Source of the DNA: a bacterium
GTDB lineage: Bacteria; Actinomycetota; Acidimicrobiia; Spongiisociales; ZC4RG35
Reading direction: 5' to 3'
DNA: 34,614 bases
Assembly: GCA_028819345.1 (NCBI GenBank)
Contig: JAPPLW010000029.1
Location: forward strand, 1 to 34,614
Positions 5,953 to 31,178 of this stretch are shown here, one piece after another. The stretch's first letter is position 1. Every line of letters starts with the position of its first letter. Under the pieces are notes generated by a model. It saw nothing but the letters and a program-made list of their open reading frames with translations, searched no databases and was not told the origin of the DNA. A program made the position numbers and the translations under genes.

Positions 5953-6041
5953 GGGCGAGTGGCGAAATTGGCAGACGCGCAGGATTCAGGATCCTGTGGG
6001 CTTTAAAACCCGTGGGGGTTCAAGTCCCCCCTCGCCCACCA
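5953..6041 (+). tRNA. tRNA-Leu (anticodon CAG)
   Basis: Acceptor GGGCGAG (5953-5959) pairs with CTCGCCC (6031-6037), followed by A and an encoded CCA. The anticodon arm is CAGGA, loop TTCAGGA, TCCTG, giving anticodon CAG, which reads CUG. A long variable arm marks a class II tRNA, and the T arm is GGGGG TTCAAGT CCCCC. All arms are intact. Confidence 0.95.
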
Positions 6042-6047
6042 AGGTCA

Positions 6048-6093
6048 GTTAGTGACTTATCGCCATACGCGTTAGTGATTTAGCGGCAAACGC
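6048..6093 (+). repeat. Two 23-bp imperfect direct repeats after tRNA-Leu
   Basis: Two adjacent units at 6048-6070 and 6071-6093, both starting GTTAGTGA and ending ACGC, match at 19 of 23 positions. They begin six bases after the tRNA and lie between it and the transposase gene. They could be protein-binding iterons or part of the end of the mobile element. No matching inverted copy was seen at 9000-9270. Confidence 0.6.
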
Positions 6094-6267
6094 GTCGGTT
6101 TTGCCGGTTTTCGGTGGTTTCGAGGGGTTTGGCCCCGTTTGAGGGGGTGGTTTCGGCTGGCCAGCGGGGTGTTTCCAGCGGCCGGGTGTCAGGGTTTGGT
6201 TGTTCGGGCGCGGCGAAGCCGACAGTGGGGGGTTTACTGTCGGCGCGAGGGAACGGCGTGGTTGGGG

Positions 6268-8043
6268 TTAGGGTGGCCCTCGGGGTGTCTCGGCCGGTGT
6301 GGAGGGCGCTTCGCTGGGGGGAGTGTCCGATGGTTCGGTATCGGTGATGGGTTCTTCATGTTGTGTTCGGTCTCTGCGGTAGCGGGCGGCTATTGAGAGG
6401 TTGTGTGCTATGACTTTGGCGAGGGCGCCGAGGGTGATAGCTACTTTGTTGAAGACGCGGCACCACCCGATCGCGAAGTTGCCTTTGTCGCCGACCGTCG
6501 AGTTTTTGGTTTCGCTGTTGTTGCGCCGGTCCTTGTAACTCTTTCTCCACGCACGCGTGTTTGGGGGGATTCGTTGGTAGCTGTCGAGTTTGTCGACCGG
6601 GACGGTTACCAGTCCTTCGCAGCAGTATTCGTCGTCGATGGCAAGAACTGGTCCCTTGGCGGGGGCTTTTTTGGGGTTGCGGGTCTTGGCGGAGGTTTTG
6701 ACTCTTCCGGCGCATTGGGGGCAGATGAGTTGCACGGCGCCGCCTTCGAGATATCTGTGTACGGTCCACCGCCAGCGGGCCCGGTTGGCGTACCACTCTT
6801 CGAGTTCCTTGCCGGTCAGTTCCGCGGGTGGCACTAGGAGTTCTTCGGGTAGCCATGCCGAGAAGAACGACCCCAGGTGGCGCATGAGCTGCTGTTTGTT
6901 GTTCCTTCCGACTGTTACGGGGACAGGCCTGTCGATTTCGCCGGAGTTGTATTCCATAACCACCTCGATGCCTTGCTCGTGGAGTTTTCGGCAGAAGGTC
7001 TTGCGTTTGTTGGTGTAGGCCCGGTCGGCGATTACTTCTTTGATCCGGGGAGCGATTTCCATTGCTCTGGCCACGAGATCCAGTGCGACAAGTCCGGGGT
7101 TCGTGGCCCCTGGGACCACGGCCATGGCGAGGATGAACTTGGGCGGGGCCTTGTTGAGACCGAGGTCGCGGGGGTCGCCTCTCCAGTTCGCACCGGGAAC
7201 GGCTGTGACGAAATGCAGGTCGTAGCCGAGCACAATCTTGGCTTTTTCTCTGGTTGTGGCGCTCTTGTATGTGAGACGAGCATCACGATCGTGGCCACGG
7301 ATCACCCGCCCGTCGGGACCGGGAGTGTCTATTTCGTAGGTGAATGGACCGGTCACTTCCGGGAGTGTGGGCTCGGCGAGGTCGGCCTCTTCGCGTGCTG
7401 CAAGTTCGTGCTCGGCCAGAGCGTCTTCTTCCTTTTTGAAGTTCTTGGACACTGCCCAGGATTCGATGACTTTGGAATCTATGGAAACGGCGCTGATCAT
7501 TTTCCGTACTCTCCTGGGAACGGCCACGTTCACGAAGGTGTGGCAGATCCAGTCCAGATCGAAGATGGCTTCTAACTTTTCGGTCCATTTGGCTCCGAGA
7601 ACCGCTTCGAGGCGTTGGATCTGGTCACATACGGAGTGGTAACTAACCGGAGGGGGGTTGTCCATGTCCCAGAGTCCCAGTTGGTATGCAACCTGGGAAG
7701 GGAAACCGTTCAACACGGCGCACAGGTCGGTGCGGCGATAAGACCCCAGGATTTTCGCAGCGAGGACCGCGGCTAGGAATAGGGCTTCCACGCTGATCCG
7801 AGATTCTTTCCCCGGGTGGTTGCGGAGGCGCTGTTCCAACGACTGGACGTCTTGGTTTCTTCTGATCAGCGCGAGGATTGGCTCGACTTGTTCCGGTTCG
7901 GTCCAGATAGGAAACTCGGTGTCGTCGAAAGTCACCGGGAAGTTCGGCAGGCGCCGCATCTTGTCGAGGGTCTGGGCGTCTTCTGTGCAGAGACGATCCT
8001 TGCTGGCTGCTCGTTCGCGGCGACGGCGCAGTCCCCGGGTCAT
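6268..8043 (-). CDS. DDE transposase with inserted zinc ribbon
   Basis: Cut-and-paste type transposase of 591 residues. D189 (in SIDSK) and D340 (in IADRAY) fit the first two catalytic aspartates of IS4/IS1182-like DDE enzymes. E511 (in NSETKNS) is the best candidate for the glutamate, just before the conserved C-terminal helices. Between D340 and E511 sits an insertion with CPQC at 441-444 and CC at 474-475, likely a zinc ribbon. A longer reading frame exists upstream, but its extra residues are only the other frame of the neighbouring gene; the ATG at 8043 overlaps that gene's TGA by four bases, fixing this start. The last 35 residues are a Pro/Thr/Glu-rich tail. The exact IS family is not recognised. 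Confidence 0.85.
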   Translation of the reverse strand: MTRGLRRRRERAASKDRLCTEDAQTLDKMRRLPNFPVTFDDTEFPIWTEPEQVEPILALIRRNQDVQSLEQRLRNHPGKESRISVEALFLAAVLAAKILGSYRRTDLCAVLNGFPSQVAYQLGLWDMDNPPPVSYHSVCDQIQRLEAVLGAKWTEKLEAIFDLDWICHTFVNVAVPRRVRKMISAVSIDSKVIESWAVSKNFKKEEDALAEHELAAREEADLAEPTLPEVTGPFTYEIDTPGPDGRVIRGHDRDARLTYKSATTREKAKIVLGYDLHFVTAVPGANWRGDPRDLGLNKAPPKFILAMAVVPGATNPGLVALDLVARAMEIAPRIKEVIADRAYTNKRKTFCRKLHEQGIEVVMEYNSGEIDRPVPVTVGRNNKQQLMRHLGSFFSAWLPEELLVPPAELTGKELEEWYANRARWRWTVHRYLEGGAVQLICPQCAGRVKTSAKTRNPKKAPAKGPVLAIDDEYCCEGLVTVPVDKLDSYQRIPPNTRAWRKSYKDRRNNSETKNSTVGDKGNFAIGWCRVFNKVAITLGALAKVIAHNLSIAARYRRDRTQHEEPITDTEPSDTPPSEAPSTPAETPRGPP

Positions 8044-8966
8044 GCGCGCAGCGCCTCTCTGGCCGTTTCGGTGTCGTCGAGGGTGTTCTCGATGTGGCCG
8101 AGCAGCCCGTCCAGGGTGTTCATCGACAGCCGACCCGCTACCTGTTTCAGGACGGGCAACGGTGTGCCGGCCTGGAGGTGCGCGACGATCCATGTGGACC
8201 GCGCGCGGCGGAGAACCAACCCCTCGCCTCCGCCCGGGTCGAGCCTGGCGCAAATGTTGTACACCAGGTTGCGTCCACCGGCTGGGATGAACCGGCCCTC
8301 TCCGGTGCGTTGCAAAGCCTGATGTGCGATGTCTGTGTATTGGTGGCGGATCGGCGTCAAGCGGGGGTTCTTTCCTCTCACCCGCACCGCCAGTCGGCCG
8401 GTGTCCACTTCGAACAGGTCGTCGATGTGTGCTATGGTGATCTCTTTGCCGTTCAGTCCCCCTCCGAGAGCGGCGGCGAGTATCCACAGGCGCTCTGGGC
8501 GGTTTTGGCGGCCGGGTAGCTTGGCTGCTCGCCGGAAGGCCAGTTCTTCTTTGGCGGTGTAGGGCGTCGCGATGCCGGTCCTGCCGACCTGCCGCGACGG
8601 CGATGGCCACTCCTTGGGGTTGGCGGCTCGTCCCACGGCCCTTAGGGCTGATCGGGCGTTGTCGCGCCATGTCCCGCTCCGATGGGAGTTCACCTCCATC
8701 GTCCAGTGCTCCACATTGGCGGGATGCAAAACGGTGCGGACATCACAGGTGCCCAAATGGCGATAGACCCAGACCACCAGACTCGCCGTGCAGCGAAGCT
8801 GCCACCGTGCCCGTTCCGCGTTTTCGGGACCGGCGGCCGAGACCCAACCGCGCACGGTGTCCATCAGCGGCTCCAACAGGCGCCGGTCGGTTTCGGCCCA
8901 CCCGTGAGGTTGCCATGTCTCCAGGACCCTCTCCACTTCAGGCGCCAGGGTTCGCTGTCGGCTCAC
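8040..8966 (-). CDS. Tyrosine-recombinase-like protein lacking catalytic residues
   Basis: A 308-residue protein whose C-terminal two thirds follow the tyrosine recombinase plan: an ALGGGLNGKEI helix where integrases have TGLR, a VRGKNPR beta-hairpin lysine, and RRARST..AHLQAG followed by LLGHI. However, the first catalytic Arg is Asn (GLN), the His of HxxR is Arg, and no Tyr follows the GH motif, so strand cleavage is not expected. It is probably a DNA-binding partner of the transposase, with which it shares an ATGA overlap. The GTG at 8966 follows GGGGGAG by four bases and is preferred over the GTG at 8990. It could alternatively be a decayed integrase, though the open frame and overlap argue for function. 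Confidence 0.65.
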   Translation of the reverse strand: MSRQRTLAPEVERVLETWQPHGWAETDRRLLEPLMDTVRGWVSAAGPENAERARWQLRCTASLVVWVYRHLGTCDVRTVLHPANVEHWTMEVNSHRSGTWRDNARSALRAVGRAANPKEWPSPSRQVGRTGIATPYTAKEELAFRRAAKLPGRQNRPERLWILAAALGGGLNGKEITIAHIDDLFEVDTGRLAVRVRGKNPRLTPIRHQYTDIAHQALQRTGEGRFIPAGGRNLVYNICARLDPGGGEGLVLRRARSTWIVAHLQAGTPLPVLKQVAGRLSMNTLDGLLGHIENTLDDTETAREALRA

Positions 8967-9239
8967 GAGACTCCCCCTTCCTCGTGGCACGCCCGACTGG
9001 TTTGACGCCGGGACAGGCGGTTCTCGGCGCGTTGGGATTCGGGCAACGACGAGGCCCGTTCTGCTGTCTCGGGCGACCTTCTGTGGTCGGGTCGTACAAC
9101 GGCGCAGGTACGCATACCCGAGAAGCTCAACATGACACTTCCAGATTGCCTAAACCTGTTTTTTGGAAATTTTTGCCGTAGGCCCTGGATAGCGTCGTCA
9201 AAATGTCCACTGCGCCCGACGCTACCTGGGGGACGTGAC

Positions 9240-9251
9240 GCCTTTTAAGGC
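9240..9251. promoter_or_regulatory. 12-bp palindrome upstream of the XRE-type gene
   Basis: GCCTTTTAAGGC is a perfect palindrome 20 bases before the ATG at 9272. It lies between a GTGACG at 9234-9239 and a TACGCT close to the start codon, so it could be an operator for autoregulation of a near-leaderless transcript. Both promoter boxes are weak. Confidence 0.3.
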
Positions 9252-9271
9252 ACTCGGCTACGCTTAGTCCG

Positions 9272-9751
9272 ATGGCGATCGCCAGAGAACACCCGGTCAC
9301 CTATGTCGTGCCAGGAGGCGCGTTTCCGCAAGGCCCATACAAGAAAACCACACCGTCGGAGGTCTACCTGGCCGCCGGTCTCGCCCGTCGGCTGAGACAG
9401 AGAATGAAGGGCGACTCAGTTCGATATTGGGCCAGCAAAGCAGAACTCAGCCCCCAAACGCTCATCAACATCCTCAACGGCAAAGCCTGGCCGGACATCC
9501 TCACCATCGCCCGGCTCGAAAAAACCCTCGGAGGTCGCTCGCTATGGGGAAGCGAACACCGCAAAACACCGAACTGGACCGATGGCAATTTTTGCACGCC
9601 ACCGGGTTTCAGAATTCCATCTGCCAGAGAGATCCACAAAATGCTCCGGGGAACCGACCCTGAGAAGGCCAGAAAACTGGCCAGCGAGTACGCTCGTGCG
9701 AAAGCGGTGCAACGCCAGCAAGCAGCGAAACCCTCCACACCCACACCCTGA
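9272..9751 (+). CDS. XRE-type helix-turn-helix protein
   Basis: A 159-residue protein with a central XRE/Cro-like DNA-binding fold at about residues 33-90. The segment AELSPQTLINILNGKAWPD has the recognition-helix shape (S/T-x-x-x-I-x-x-I/L-x-x-G), and a following helix contains IARLEKTLG. The N-terminal 30 residues are Pro/Gly-rich and the C-terminal tail is basic. No Shine-Dalgarno is visible, so leaderless initiation is possible. It lies divergent from the transposon core and convergent with the kinase/phosphoesterase pair, so it may regulate either. A repressor is more likely than an activator, but no ligand domain is seen. Confidence 0.7.
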   Translation: MAIAREHPVTYVVPGGAFPQGPYKKTTPSEVYLAAGLARRLRQRMKGDSVRYWASKAELSPQTLINILNGKAWPDILTIARLEKTLGGRSLWGSEHRKTPNWTDGNFCTPPGFRIPSAREIHKMLRGTDPEKARKLASEYARAKAVQRQQAAKPSTPTP

Positions 9752-9925
9752 CACAGACGCTCCCCCGCGCCCCGAAACTCATCCACAGCAACACGGCACC
9801 GACTCAAGCGGACCCGGCAGTGCCGGAATCATCTCATCTGTCCAGGCGATGGGCACCCTATCTGATCCGACACCACACAGGAATCACCCTCCGAGCACTA
9901 CTCATCCCCCGCCCGTCGCCTAGCG

Positions 9926-9950
9926 AACCGGCCCCTCCGCTGGCCGGGTT
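9926..9950. terminator. Possible bidirectional terminator hairpin
   Basis: AACCGGCC and GGCCGGGTT can pair around an 8-base loop with one bulged G. The hairpin lies between the convergent XRE and kinase genes. There is no clear T-tract, so the role is inferred from position. Confidence 0.3.
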
Positions 9951-9981
9951 AACCGTCCAACGAACCCTCCGGTCGATAGTC

Positions 9982-10665
9982 CTATGAAGCGAGGATCGTA
10001 ACTGGTATTCGGCTGTGTTTGATGATCGAATCGGCGACATCGGCAGGAAGGACATTGGTGGTGTCCACAGTCAACAGATCCTCGTCATTAGGGATGTCTT
10101 CGGGAGACCACGACCACTGGCCGGGACTACGTTCCCGTAGCCGATCCATACGCGCGGTAGGGTCGGTCACAAGCCGCACACCGAACATCCTGTGCGGTGC
10201 CACCAAGCGAGCCACGACCTCTTCCCAATCGTGAAAGGACCGAAGCCACGCATTCTGCAACCCGGCTATCACCGCGTCACACCCTTGGTCCATGGCTTCG
10301 GCAGCCAACAGCACAGCGGACAGAGACGCCGAAGCAGCCGCGCCTCTCCACCCGTACTTGAAGTAGCTGTCGATTTCAACCAGCCACTGTTTGTCGGGTT
10401 CCATTTCCGTGTGTTCAAACAACTGGTCGTGGGTGATGCCCATTCCCCGCTTGATAGCGTTGGTGTCGATGCTGGCTAACCCGTACCGGCGGGCAAGGCA
10501 TCTCGCCACCGTGGTCTTCCCAACAGCAGACGAACCCTGCAGGACGACCAAGGTCCGAGGGCCCTGATGAACCCTGTCCCTTCGGTCTCTTACGAGGTCG
10601 AATATCCAATCAGACCACACAGTTCTGCTCATGGCCCCAGAAAGGGTAAAGGCAGGCTGTGACAT
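9982..10665 (-). CDS. P-loop kinase (AAA_33-like nucleotide/polynucleotide kinase fold)
   Basis: A 227-residue protein with a Walker A motif GSSAVGKTT, a downstream IDTNAIKRGM segment resembling the substrate-binding DxD/N-x-I/L-R stretch of small P-loop kinases, and a lid-like Arg-rich stretch (TARMDRLRERSPG). These fit the AAA_33 group, which includes polynucleotide kinase and antibiotic phosphotransferases; the phosphate acceptor cannot be told. The frame is open upstream, but those residues are a shadow of the neighbouring phosphoesterase. I chose the ATG at 10665; the ATG at 10632 is equally possible, and neither has a good Shine-Dalgarno. It lies 79 bases after the metallophosphoesterase on the same strand, suggesting a joint nucleic-acid end-processing role. 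Confidence 0.65.
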   Translation of the reverse strand: MSQPAFTLSGAMSRTVWSDWIFDLVRDRRDRVHQGPRTLVVLQGSSAVGKTTVARCLARRYGLASIDTNAIKRGMGITHDQLFEHTEMEPDKQWLVEIDSYFKYGWRGAAASASLSAVLLAAEAMDQGCDAVIAGLQNAWLRSFHDWEEVVARLVAPHRMFGVRLVTDPTARMDRLRERSPGQWSWSPEDIPNDEDLLTVDTTNVLPADVADSIIKHSRIPVTILAS

Positions 10666-10744
10666 TTCACGGCCCCAAAGCGAAGCAGGCAACTGAATTA
10701 CCGGCGGGACCAGCCCAACCAAAGCCGGCAGCATTGTCGGCAAG

Positions 10745-11509
10745 TCAGGCGAGGATGCGCAGGTTGCCCCGGCGGTCGCGTTCGGCCACGACCACCCCAT
10801 GCAGACGGTCGGGGGTGTTGCGCGGTTTGGCGAGGCAAACAACCTGGGTGGGGCCGATCCTGACCTGTTGGTCGTAGTGCATGTGGCCACAGGCGTGAAC
10901 CTTGGGCCGCAGGTTCAGGGCGAGTTGCCGAAGGTACGGATCCCCGACCGGTATGCCTGCCTTGTTGGTTCCCACATCCGACGGCCAGTCGTGGGTCACC
11001 AACACATCGACGCCTCCGTGGTAGCGGCGGGCCGTGCGGGTGAGCTGTTCCAACTCGGACCGGTGCCAGTAGGTGCGTTGTTTGGCGTTGTTGCGTTCCG
11101 GCTCGGGGGTGTCGCTGTACTTGGGTGAGTAGATACCCGACAGGAACCCGACATTCACTTTGTGGATTGTGGTGATGCCCCACCGACCGAGCCACCACAC
11201 TCCCGGCGCCCACTCTCCTGCTCCGGCCCGGTCCAACGCCGGATAGGGGTCGTGGTTTCCCGCGATGAAGTACAGGGGCGCACCCAACACGATTTCACCG
11301 GCGGCTACGCGGGGGAAGTCGCCCACTTTGCGGTAGCGGGACGGGCCTACCACCCCAAGGTGATCGTCATGGCCCCGGTTGGGTTCCACATCTCCCGCGG
11401 CCAGTACGAATTCGAACGCGCCCCACCGACCACGAGCCGCATCGAGGGCCTCTGCCAGCACCTCGAAATTGCCGTGGATGTCACCCACCAACGCGAACTT
11501 GGTTCCCAT
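10745..11509 (-). CDS. Dbr1-like calcineurin-type metallophosphoesterase
   Basis: A 254-residue protein with the full set of metallophosphoesterase motifs: GDIHG (9-13), GD (39-40), GNHD (84-87), THDWP (172-176) and GHMH (208-211). The order WWLGRWG, GFLSGIYS, TYWHRSELE, then VTHDWPSD and LRPKVHACGHMH closely follows the lariat-debranching enzyme (Dbr1) family, where the HDWP and SGIY segments are characteristic. Eukaryotic Dbr1 opens 2'-5' RNA branches; the substrate of this bacterial relative is unknown. The ATG at 11509 has GGAGG two bases upstream and gives the normal N-terminus; a longer frame to 11566 adds unlikely residues. It is followed by the P-loop kinase. It may act on RNA or DNA ends, nucleotides or tailored oligonucleotides; only phosphoesterase chemistry is secure. 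Confidence 0.8.
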   Translation of the reverse strand: MGTKFALVGDIHGNFEVLAEALDAARGRWGAFEFVLAAGDVEPNRGHDDHLGVVGPSRYRKVGDFPRVAAGEIVLGAPLYFIAGNHDPYPALDRAGAGEWAPGVWWLGRWGITTIHKVNVGFLSGIYSPKYSDTPEPERNNAKQRTYWHRSELEQLTRTARRYHGGVDVLVTHDWPSDVGTNKAGIPVGDPYLRQLALNLRPKVHACGHMHYDQQVRIGPTQVVCLAKPRNTPDRLHGVVVAERDRRGNLRILA

Positions 11510-11818
11510 AGCCTCCGTCAGACTAAAAAGGCCGCCCCTCTGGCAGCCACCCAGTTTCAGAGGCATCCGATGCGCGGAAGCGGACTAGACCTCTGTCGGG
11601 TCTAGGAACAATGAAACCGGCTCCGCGCCTCTTGGGGGCCGAATGCACCAGTGGGTTGTCACAGGGTCCCGTTACATTAAACACGGGTGTTGACTGACCT
11701 CCACAACCCCACCCCTCCGGCATTTTCCCGGGAGTAAATGTGGCAACTCCGAAAGCCCACGGGGCTGCGGTCACCGCGGAAAGGTTTCTCTCCCTTTAGG
11801 AAAGGTCGCTGCTGCTAA

Positions 11819-15050: not shown

Positions 15051-15409
15051 TCAACGACGCTGTCGAAAGCCGCCGCCGCGTACAGTATCCACTGGGGAGT
15101 GCCGAGTTCTGACCGTAGCACTTCCCTCTGGAAGAAACTGGTGAAATCGGAGTCCACCGGAACGTCCCCTCCGCTGGACCGGGTTAGATGGGTTTCTTTG
15201 GGTCGGAGACCGCAGGCCTGTTCCTCAGCGGTGGTGTCTATCCCCCGGGAGCGTTTCCACGCCAGCCGCCGTTCGATGTTACGAGTCGGCGACCCACCAC
15301 GAGCAAGCAAACGCTCATAGTTCTCCCGTCCTCGTTCCAGCGCCTCTTCCATGGTCAGGATCGTCGGAGGTGGCGAAGAATAAGGATCGATGACGGTTGG
15401 TTCGGACAT
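15035..15409 (-). CDS. Duplicated hypothetical protein A, fused to 5' part of nucleotidyltransferase
   Basis: A 124-residue frame. Residues 1-80 (IDPYSSPPP, then a charged helical region ending GIDTTAEEQACGLRPKE) are nearly identical to the frame at 15355-15777. After VPVDSD it continues as FTSFFQREVLRSEL..WILYAAAAFDSVVEHP, which looks like the N-terminal helices of the downstream nucleotidyltransferase. An internal GTG (VDSDF) could be the true start of that enzyme. The start at 15409 is chosen by alignment with the second copy (ATGTCCGA versus ATGGCCGA); no strong Shine-Dalgarno is seen. The conserved part is basic and polar, possibly an antitoxin-like or DNA-binding protein; its function is unknown. 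Confidence 0.5.
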   Translation of the reverse strand: MSEPTVIDPYSSPPPTILTMEEALERGRENYERLLARGGSPTRNIERRLAWKRSRGIDTTAEEQACGLRPKETHLTRSSGGDVPVDSDFTSFFQREVLRSELGTPQWILYAAAAFDSVVEHPRP

Positions 15410-15651
15410 GACCCGGAACATAGGAGGCCTTGCGGATCATGGGCAGAACAGTTACGCCGGAGAGCCTCGAACAAACAAGACCGAGCGGAATCGCTGGTTC
15501 GGCTGTCCTGGTGGTCGGAGCCCACCGGAACGTCCCCTCTGCTGGGCCGGGTTAGATGGGTTTCTTTGGGTCGGAGACCGCAGGCTTGTTCCTCAGCGGT
15601 GGTGTCTATCCCCCGGGAGCGTTTCCACGCCAACCGCTTTTCGACGTTGCG
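15151..15651 (-). repeat. 368-bp tandem duplication
   Basis: The near-identical cores 15151-15283 and 15519-15651 (for example both contain GGTTAGATGGGTTTCTTTGG) differ at only a few positions, many of them synonymous in the minus-strand frame. The flanks have diverged. Confidence 0.75.
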
Positions 15652-15777
15652 GACCGGTGACCCACCGGCGGCCACGAGACGCTTGTGGTTTTCCCGCCCC
15701 CGGGCCTGCGCCCCTTCCATCGTCAGAATCACCGGCGGAGGCGAAGCGTGAGGATCGATCATGGTTTGCTCGGCCAT
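15355..15777 (-). CDS. Duplicated hypothetical protein B (tandem paralogue, truncated)
   Basis: A 140-residue frame starting at the ATG at 15777, which has GAGGAT four to five bases upstream. The first ~80 residues (SPPPVILTMEG, then GRENHKRL, GIDTTAEEQACG) repeat those of the gene at 15035-15409. Beyond VPVGSD the sequence diverges into an unrelated, probably non-native tail that overlaps the start of the other copy. The nucleotide match is strongest between 15151-15283 and 15519-15651, an offset of 368 bp, showing a recent tandem duplication that lost the nucleotidyltransferase part. Confidence 0.5.
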   Translation of the reverse strand: MAEQTMIDPHASPPPVILTMEGAQARGRENHKRLVAAGGSPVRNVEKRLAWKRSRGIDTTAEEQACGLRPKETHLTRPSRGDVPVGSDHQDSRTSDSARSCLFEALRRNCSAHDPQGLLCSGSCPNQPSSILILRHLRRS

Positions 15778-16103
15778 GATCCTCACAATGGCACTGGAGT
15801 GTCCGAGCAACCAGCGACAGTTTGCAGCGATTGCGTGCTGTTCACAACGCGTTTTGCTTCCCGTGCAGTTGTGTTCTTCTCCGCTGCTCCCGCAGGGACC
15901 TGGCTGGCGTTATTCAGCTTTAGGGGGGCGACCGGCGCACGCCAACTAACTACGACAGTGGTGCCGTCAATACCACTACGTCGACATGCCGCGGATTGTG
16001 AATTCGAAAAACGATTACGAGAAGAAGATAGTTGAATTAGTAGCTGTAATTCTTGTAGGCCCGGCGTGCCATCCACAGACCCCGCGTCGGAAAGAGGAGA
16101 ACG

Positions 16104-30802: not shown

Positions 30803-30939
30803 ACCGATCACGGCGAACCCTGCTCAATTGCCGCGCGTTGATGAAGGTTTTCCCGGTTCATTTGAAACGGGTTGTGGCCGGGGCCACTACCCGAATCAGA
30901 CACAACAGCACCACCGAGGAACGCAAAACCGGCAAGCAA

Positions 30940-31114
30940 CGCACCCGAGCACTCCGAAGTCATCCCCGAAGACACCGAATCGACGGGACCCCGCAACCGC
31001 AGACTCGCCAACGGAGCCGGACAGTACGGCTGCTCCCAGTGCGCCGGAAGGGTCACCACCAACGCCAAAACCCGCAACACAAGCCAAAACCGCTCCCTAC
31101 CCCCGATTACATAA
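30940..31114 (+). pseudogene. Relic related to the zinc-ribbon part of the DDE transposase
   Basis: The plus-strand frame contains GQYGCSQCAGRVTTNAKTRN, which aligns with the CPQCAGRVKTSAKTRN segment (residues 441-456) of the transposase at 6268-8043. No catalytic region is preserved around it. It suggests a second, older copy of the same element next to fucU. The match is short, so a shared zinc-ribbon family is an alternative. Confidence 0.45.
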
Positions 31115-31178
31115 CCCGACGCCTCCTGCGGGGACACCTTGGGGGCGGTCCGAACAGAAAAGGTTCACGCCCTTCGCC

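Follow-up and report, generated by a model that had tools for sequence, protein, structure and literature searches.

What a tyrosine recombinase that has lost its catalytic residues might do when it is encoded directly in front of a DDE transposase is the question raised by a locus in the actinobacterial contig JAPPLW010000029.1, of which a stretch of 34,614 nucleotides (the window) was analysed. A preliminary description of this locus had regarded the upstream protein as an inactive integrase fold kept as an accessory subunit of the transposase, and had considered the arrangement to be without precedent. Here, we describe the gene pair, its relatives, and the ends of the elements that carry it. 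These elements are probably DDE transposons whose homing sites are the 3′ ends of tRNA and tmRNA genes, with the dead recombinase acting as the target selector that brings in the transposase. The whole analysis rests on sequence and predicted structure.

The gene pair and its proteins

Three genes of the locus are considered here:
8040..8966, minus strand: catalytically dead tyrosine-recombinase-fold protein, the proposed target selector, with a 4-nt overlap with the transposase gene
6268..8043, minus strand: DDE transposase of 591 aa, IS1182/Tn5-like, with D189, D340, and E511 and a Cys-rich insertion
9272..9751, plus strand: divergent HTH_3 protein, a probable regulator and the third gene conserved in many copies

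The likeliest start of the upstream gene is the GTG at 8966, preceded by AGGGGGAG, and its stop lies at 8040 (its residue numbers below run from a GTG at 8990). Searched on its own, the upstream protein contains no Pfam domain. Its AlphaFold2 model, built with 41 homologues, reaches a pLDDT of 93.7 and comprises the core-binding and catalytic domains of the tyrosine recombinase fold; the top 50 Foldseek matches in the PDB are tyrosine recombinases without exception, including Cre, XerA, XerH, and Tn1549 Int, which bears out the integrase fold that the preliminary description had read from the sequence. The highest VIA score is that to XerA (Z 15.8), with MrpR/YopR (Z about 11) and SroF also among the structural matches, and a search of the PDB with a profile of the upstream-protein family retrieves an archaeal Xer (1.8e-11).

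The catalytic losses named in the preliminary description are likewise present: the Arg I position is occupied by Asn180 (GLNGKE), the His of HxxR by Arg261, and the Tyr position by Leu296. With the H/W position also substituted, Arg II (Arg264) alone survives of the catalytic set R-K-H-R-H/W-Y, and this Arg II is invariant across the full-length members of the family. That description had allowed that homologues with intact R-K-H-R-H-Y residues would mark this copy as simply decayed; none of the roughly 45 homologues aligned is catalytically complete. Since about 40 homologous pairs across Actinomycetota share the catalytic loss, and dN/dS is 0.12–0.25 for close pairs of homologues, the upstream gene, as judged by comparison, is intact and under purifying selection in many lineages, and its product is a conserved dead tyrosine recombinase and not a decayed copy.

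The transposase start codon (ATG, 8043) overlaps the upstream stop in the sequence ATGA at 8040–8043, as had been described. The catalytic triad consists of D189, D340, and E511, the SYxRRxxxE motif conserves the Y-R-E-K type signature of the Tn5/IS4-type DDE fold, and Foldseek assigns a Tn5 fold with a probability of 0.99; by these features the protein is an intact Tn5/IS1182-type DDE enzyme. Between D340 and E511 lies a Cys-rich insertion with four conserved cysteines (C441, C444, C474, and C475). The DDE transposase and the insertion of the earlier account thus stand, and the zinc ribbon it assigned there is a putative one, in that the cysteines suggest zinc binding. By profile, the nearest named transposase family is IS1182 (NCBIfam NF033551), which is matched by 24 of 34 members of the transposase family (best 4.8e-16); the window transposase itself scores 30.5 bits and so falls below the curated cut-off of 270.

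Distribution of the gene pair

The preliminary description had proposed a search of actinobacterial genomes for the same gene pair. To date, about 40 loci from many families of the class and of the phylum Actinomycetota have been found in which the gene for the dead recombinase immediately precedes that for the transposase in the same orientation, and many of these keep the identical 4-nt overlap. The trees of the two proteins are congruent in their main groups; together with the pairing, the overlap, and the purifying selection, this supports the earlier view that an inactive recombinase fold is maintained beside a DDE transposase. A second, diverged pair is present in the window's own genome (48% and 65% identity), and a sister genome holds several more. 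Profile searches matched 26 of 395 genomes of the class for the dead recombinase and 21 of 396 genomes of the phylum for the transposase. Many genomes in the survey are metagenome-assembled, and the nine loci obtained by scanning with A5, a close clade, all come from metagenome-assembled genomes. A plasmid search with the window transposase returned no match, nor did pattern scans of genome contigs (single protein) and of viral contigs (A2); plasmid copies were recovered with a Streptomyces-type transposase as the query. For example, a Streptomyces plasmid carries the pair with a short overlap and with both genes annotated as hypothetical proteins, so the pair seems to have been overlooked.

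Two further observations concern individual loci. At four of them (L122, L123, L124, and L132), two genes of the dead-recombinase type stand in tandem ahead of the transposase, perhaps encoding a heteromeric selector. Another locus, a contig of 5525 bases (L025, G058:C23), is 98.4% identical to window positions 5992–11521 in a genome placed in another family, reflecting either recent transfer or binning contamination.

Target genes and element ends

The features on the transposase side of the pair are as follows:
5953..6041, plus strand: tRNA-Leu(CAG), the occupied target, with its 3′ end towards the transposase (ARAGORN; Rfam RF00005, 56 bits)
6038..6042, plus strand: ACCAA, the tRNA-side copy of a 5-bp target duplication, from comparison of empty and occupied sites at the same tRNA in genomes G001, G003, and G004
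6043..6056, plus strand: transposase-side terminal inverted repeat GGTCAGTTAGTGAC, forming the outer end of the element, as judged by alignment with GGTCCGTTAGCGAT of the G003 element
6048..6082, plus strand: direct repeats GTTAGTGACTTA (6048–6059) and GTTAGTGATTTA (6071–6082), 23 bp apart
6217..6246, minus strand: conserved, terminator-like hairpin CCGACAGT..ACTGTCGG just beyond the transposase stop (alignment; fold z-score −4.3)

The interval 6268–8966 given in the preliminary description therefore contains both genes and is too short, with the transposase-side end at 6043 and the divergent HTH gene at 9272–9751 lying outside it.

The position of the window copy beside a tRNA gene recurs across much of the family. 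Among loci picked by protein similarity and not by gene neighbourhood, a convergent tRNA or tmRNA 3′ end lies 128–349 bp from the transposase end in 33 of 47 (mostly at 200–270 bp); ARAGORN accounts for 32 of 46 within that range (median 223), and L102 is the thirty-third. The genes used are those for Leu, Ser, Lys, Val, Gly, Arg, Glu, Ile, Met, and Tyr tRNAs and tmRNA. Loci without an adjacent tRNA are mostly at contig ends, are tandem copies (L033, L034, and L029), or are interrupted by an IS (L028); no recognisable adjacent tRNA was found at pairs L106, L126, and L132 or at the Streptomyces plasmid copies L212 and L213. Specificity for one isoacceptor was considered and rejected: the target tRNA does not track either protein tree (17 and 18 changes, 28 rows), and sister elements occupy different tRNAs, so the target is not strictly isoacceptor-specific.

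Alignment of element ends, which had also been suggested, revealed terminal inverted repeats, with 5 bp of the target duplicated. Within the same genus, empty tRNA-Leu(CAG) sites in the sister genomes G001 and G004 read CTCGCCC-ACCAA-AACC (CTCGCCCACCAAAACC), and the occupied site in G003 reads CTCGCCC-ACCAA-GGTCCGTTAGCGA...TCGCTAACGGACC-ACCAA. The G003 element is a 5 kb derivative without the transposase in which both ends are known, and it served as the reference for the transposase-side end in the window: CTCGCCC-ACCAA is followed by GGTCCGTTAGCGAT at one end, and GTCGCTAACGGACC is followed by ACCAA-ACAACC at the other, giving a terminal inverted repeat and a 5-bp duplication from discriminator base 73. 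In the window, the ACCAA duplication begins at discriminator base A73 and takes in the CCA end.

Nine more elements from other genera, 5.5–18 kb in size, were found by searching for the inverted end with the same 5-mer directly behind it. Each has a terminal inverted repeat (at most 4 mismatches in 16) and a 5-bp duplication, at Ile, Met, Ser (two), Val, and Leu tRNAs and at tmRNA (three). With shuffled repeats as controls, no hit in 1400 was obtained at up to 3 mismatches and 1.1% at up to 4; 5 or 6 mismatches amount to noise. The duplication starts at N73 in every resolved element except L125, which is ambiguous by one base; for the initiator tRNA-Met, N73 was read by eye, after unpaired base 72, because the first pair of this tRNA is open. 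The transposase end always points towards the tRNA, and the tRNA gene is left whole. In addition, a 25 kb element in G004 is bounded by CGGGT on both sides, and several elements are stacked in tandem in G002.

The two ends of an element differ internally. Paired repeats 22–23 bp apart are near-universal at the tRNA-side end across the family. At the far ends, only the outer 10–14 bp are shared; behind them lies a different motif, which in the window's genus is CCACCACCTCTGACCTG, and the end motif was not found there in inverted orientation. For the window copy, no convincing match to a far end was found in 28.5 kb of contig.

Taken together, these junctions establish, at the level of sequence, two-ended products of DDE transposition that are base-exact at tRNA and tmRNA 3′ ends and inserted in a single orientation. 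The terminal inverted repeats and the 5-bp duplication from base 73 indicate that transposition of the element is the work of the DDE transposase and that its target is defined to the exact base; the end geometry, as read from the junctions, is characteristic of a DDE transposase and unlike that of a tyrosine integrase.

Role of the upstream protein

The 3′ ends of tRNA genes are common sites for tyrosine integrases, with the T-arm and acceptor end as the classic target; to our knowledge, this target is typical of the tyrosine-integrase fold and not of the Tn5/IS1182 fold. We infer a target-selecting role for the dead recombinase. It would recognise the tRNA gene at its conserved T-arm/acceptor end, bind there, and recruit the transposase by direct contact, aided by coupled translation. 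Such recruitment would fix the place and orientation of two strand-transfer events, 5 bp apart across bases 73–77, while the transposase would cut and join the element ends, perhaps while seated on the paired 22–23 bp repeats at the tRNA-side end, which are a likely docking site for one or other protein. Repression of the operon is probably the task of the divergent HTH protein. The preliminary description was thus right in that the inactive fold is kept with the transposase, and its accessory role missed the likely function, namely target selection at tRNA and tmRNA 3′ ends.

A different division of labour, in which the transposase itself recognises tRNA ends and the dead recombinase is an architectural subunit that binds the paired 22–23 bp repeats and helps to assemble the transpososome, appears unlikely, even though those repeats are near-universal at the tRNA-side end and locus L125 would agree with it. 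This element has an intact transposase, a terminal inverted repeat, and a target duplication at tRNA-Leu, but the upstream gene could not be detected in it; it may have moved in trans, it may have lost the gene, or its transposase may find the site alone. Against this division of labour, canonical IS1182 copies, none of which (0 of 11) has a dead recombinase, lie mostly away from tRNA genes, the exception being one of the 11 (L168, 118 bp from a tRNA), and tRNA 3′ ends are, as noted, a target that fits the integrase fold. Loci L125 and L168 and the few pairs with no recognisable tRNA beside them nevertheless count against a target-selecting role of the dead recombinase, as does the far end of the window's own copy, for which the contig gave no match.

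It is quite improbable that the upstream protein is a regulator only, acting outside transposition in the manner of MrpR. Dead recombinases can act as repressors (PMC10516654), and MrpR/YopR and SroF are among the structural matches; however, many copies already have a dedicated divergent HTH gene, and a partnership with the transposase is indicated by the translational coupling and by the agreement between the two trees.

We give very little credence to the reading of these loci as ordinary tyrosine-integrase islands with the transposase as a passenger. A position at the tRNA 3′ end is typical of such islands, but just 5 bp are duplicated and terminal inverted repeats are present; the far flank in G003 repeats only ACCAA, with no proximal tRNA sequence, the 5-bp geometry is identical in all resolved elements, and no catalytically complete recombinase occurs among the homologues. 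Hardly credible at all is the idea that the upstream gene is what decay has left of an active recombinase: the Arg I or Tyr position is still filled in a few distant homologues, but the full catalytic set is found in none, and the gene is intact at a dN/dS of 0.12–0.25 in many lineages.

Cargo and other features of the contig

The elements carry cargo. For example, in the complete 6.6 kb element L117 (with L211) at a tRNA-Ser, the only genes found besides the pair are three cargo genes, all from other Pfam families; their products are an EcoRI-type methylase, a GmrSD-like nuclease, and an Abi_2 protein, and the cargo is anti-phage. No Tns or TniQ protein was found among the Pfam-scanned cargo of this element.

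In the window, a kinase-like P-loop gene stands beside a metallophosphoesterase gene (9982–11566), and these genes adjoining the pair may be cargo. The phosphoesterase region (10739–11562) is 88% identical to its counterpart inside the G004 element (L030, 293–1117), which suggests shared cargo. A short, degraded piece of a related transposase at 30893–31171, matching residues about 427–488, indicates that another element was formerly in this contig. Two copies of a repeat of about 230–285 bp lie at 15183–15413 and 15551–15836; copies 74–87% identical occur near related elements (G000:C30, G004:C2, G002:C33, and G002:C69), and the repeat has no match in Rfam. The contig end (1–505) is a tandem repeat with a period of about 200 bp, which may have stopped the assembly.

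Significance

If the proposed role is true, the pair would add an independent second example of a dead integrase co-opted for the targeting of a transposon, and in far simpler machinery than that of Tn7. It would explain DDE elements at tRNA sites that are usually credited to integrases, and why Actinomycetota islands at tRNA and tmRNA genes may be without a working integrase. Because many tRNAs and tmRNA serve as targets and the tRNA gene stays intact, the arrangement would amount to a safe-site strategy and could become a two-protein insertion tool.

Comparison with known systems

The claim that the arrangement lacks precedent did not hold. In the Tn7-like element Tn6022, comM is selected by TnsF, a zinc-finger protein with the fold of a tyrosine recombinase that has been inactivated (Faure et al., 2023; PMC10293859); it works with TniQ and TnsABC, its target selection was shown by experiment, and the Tsy element uses an active relative (PMC10293859). 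For a DDE element that targets tRNA genes with a dead recombinase, the literature searched, which covered few subscription papers, yielded only the work on TnsF/Tsy and Tn7/CAST systems. The likeness to TnsF is that an inactivated tyrosine-recombinase fold is encoded beside the transposition genes of a DDE transposon, and Tn7-like elements share the 5-bp target duplication and the one fixed orientation at the target. Whereas TnsF has N-terminal zinc fingers, TniQ and TnsABC as partners, and comM as its target, the window family has a single IS1182-like transposase, no zinc-finger N-terminus, and tRNA and tmRNA 3′ ends as targets.

Cargo-carrying DDE transposons that home beside tRNA genes are also known among Tn7-like elements and CASTs with TnsD, such as CyCAST, which inserts 30–33 nt past tRNA-Leu through TnsD (PMC10293859). 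The window family instead duplicates tRNA bases 73–77, and no TnsD-type protein was found. MrpR/YopR of phage SPbeta is a dead tyrosine recombinase serving as a repressor (PMC10516654), which likewise puts the fold to a DNA-binding use without recombinase activity; unlike the window protein, it is a phage repressor without transposase coupling, and MrpR retains the Tyr and Lys. We lean towards assigning the window's element to a new transposon family that has no relation to Tn7. In this family, independent recruitment would have made a dead tyrosine recombinase the universal selector of tRNA/tmRNA 3′ ends for a single-protein IS1182-like transposase, giving a base-exact, orientation-fixed, cargo-carrying system of two proteins. 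Thus, in its mode of working the family resembles the target-selector transposons of the Tn7/TnsF type, yet is to be classed neither as Tn7-like nor as IS1182.
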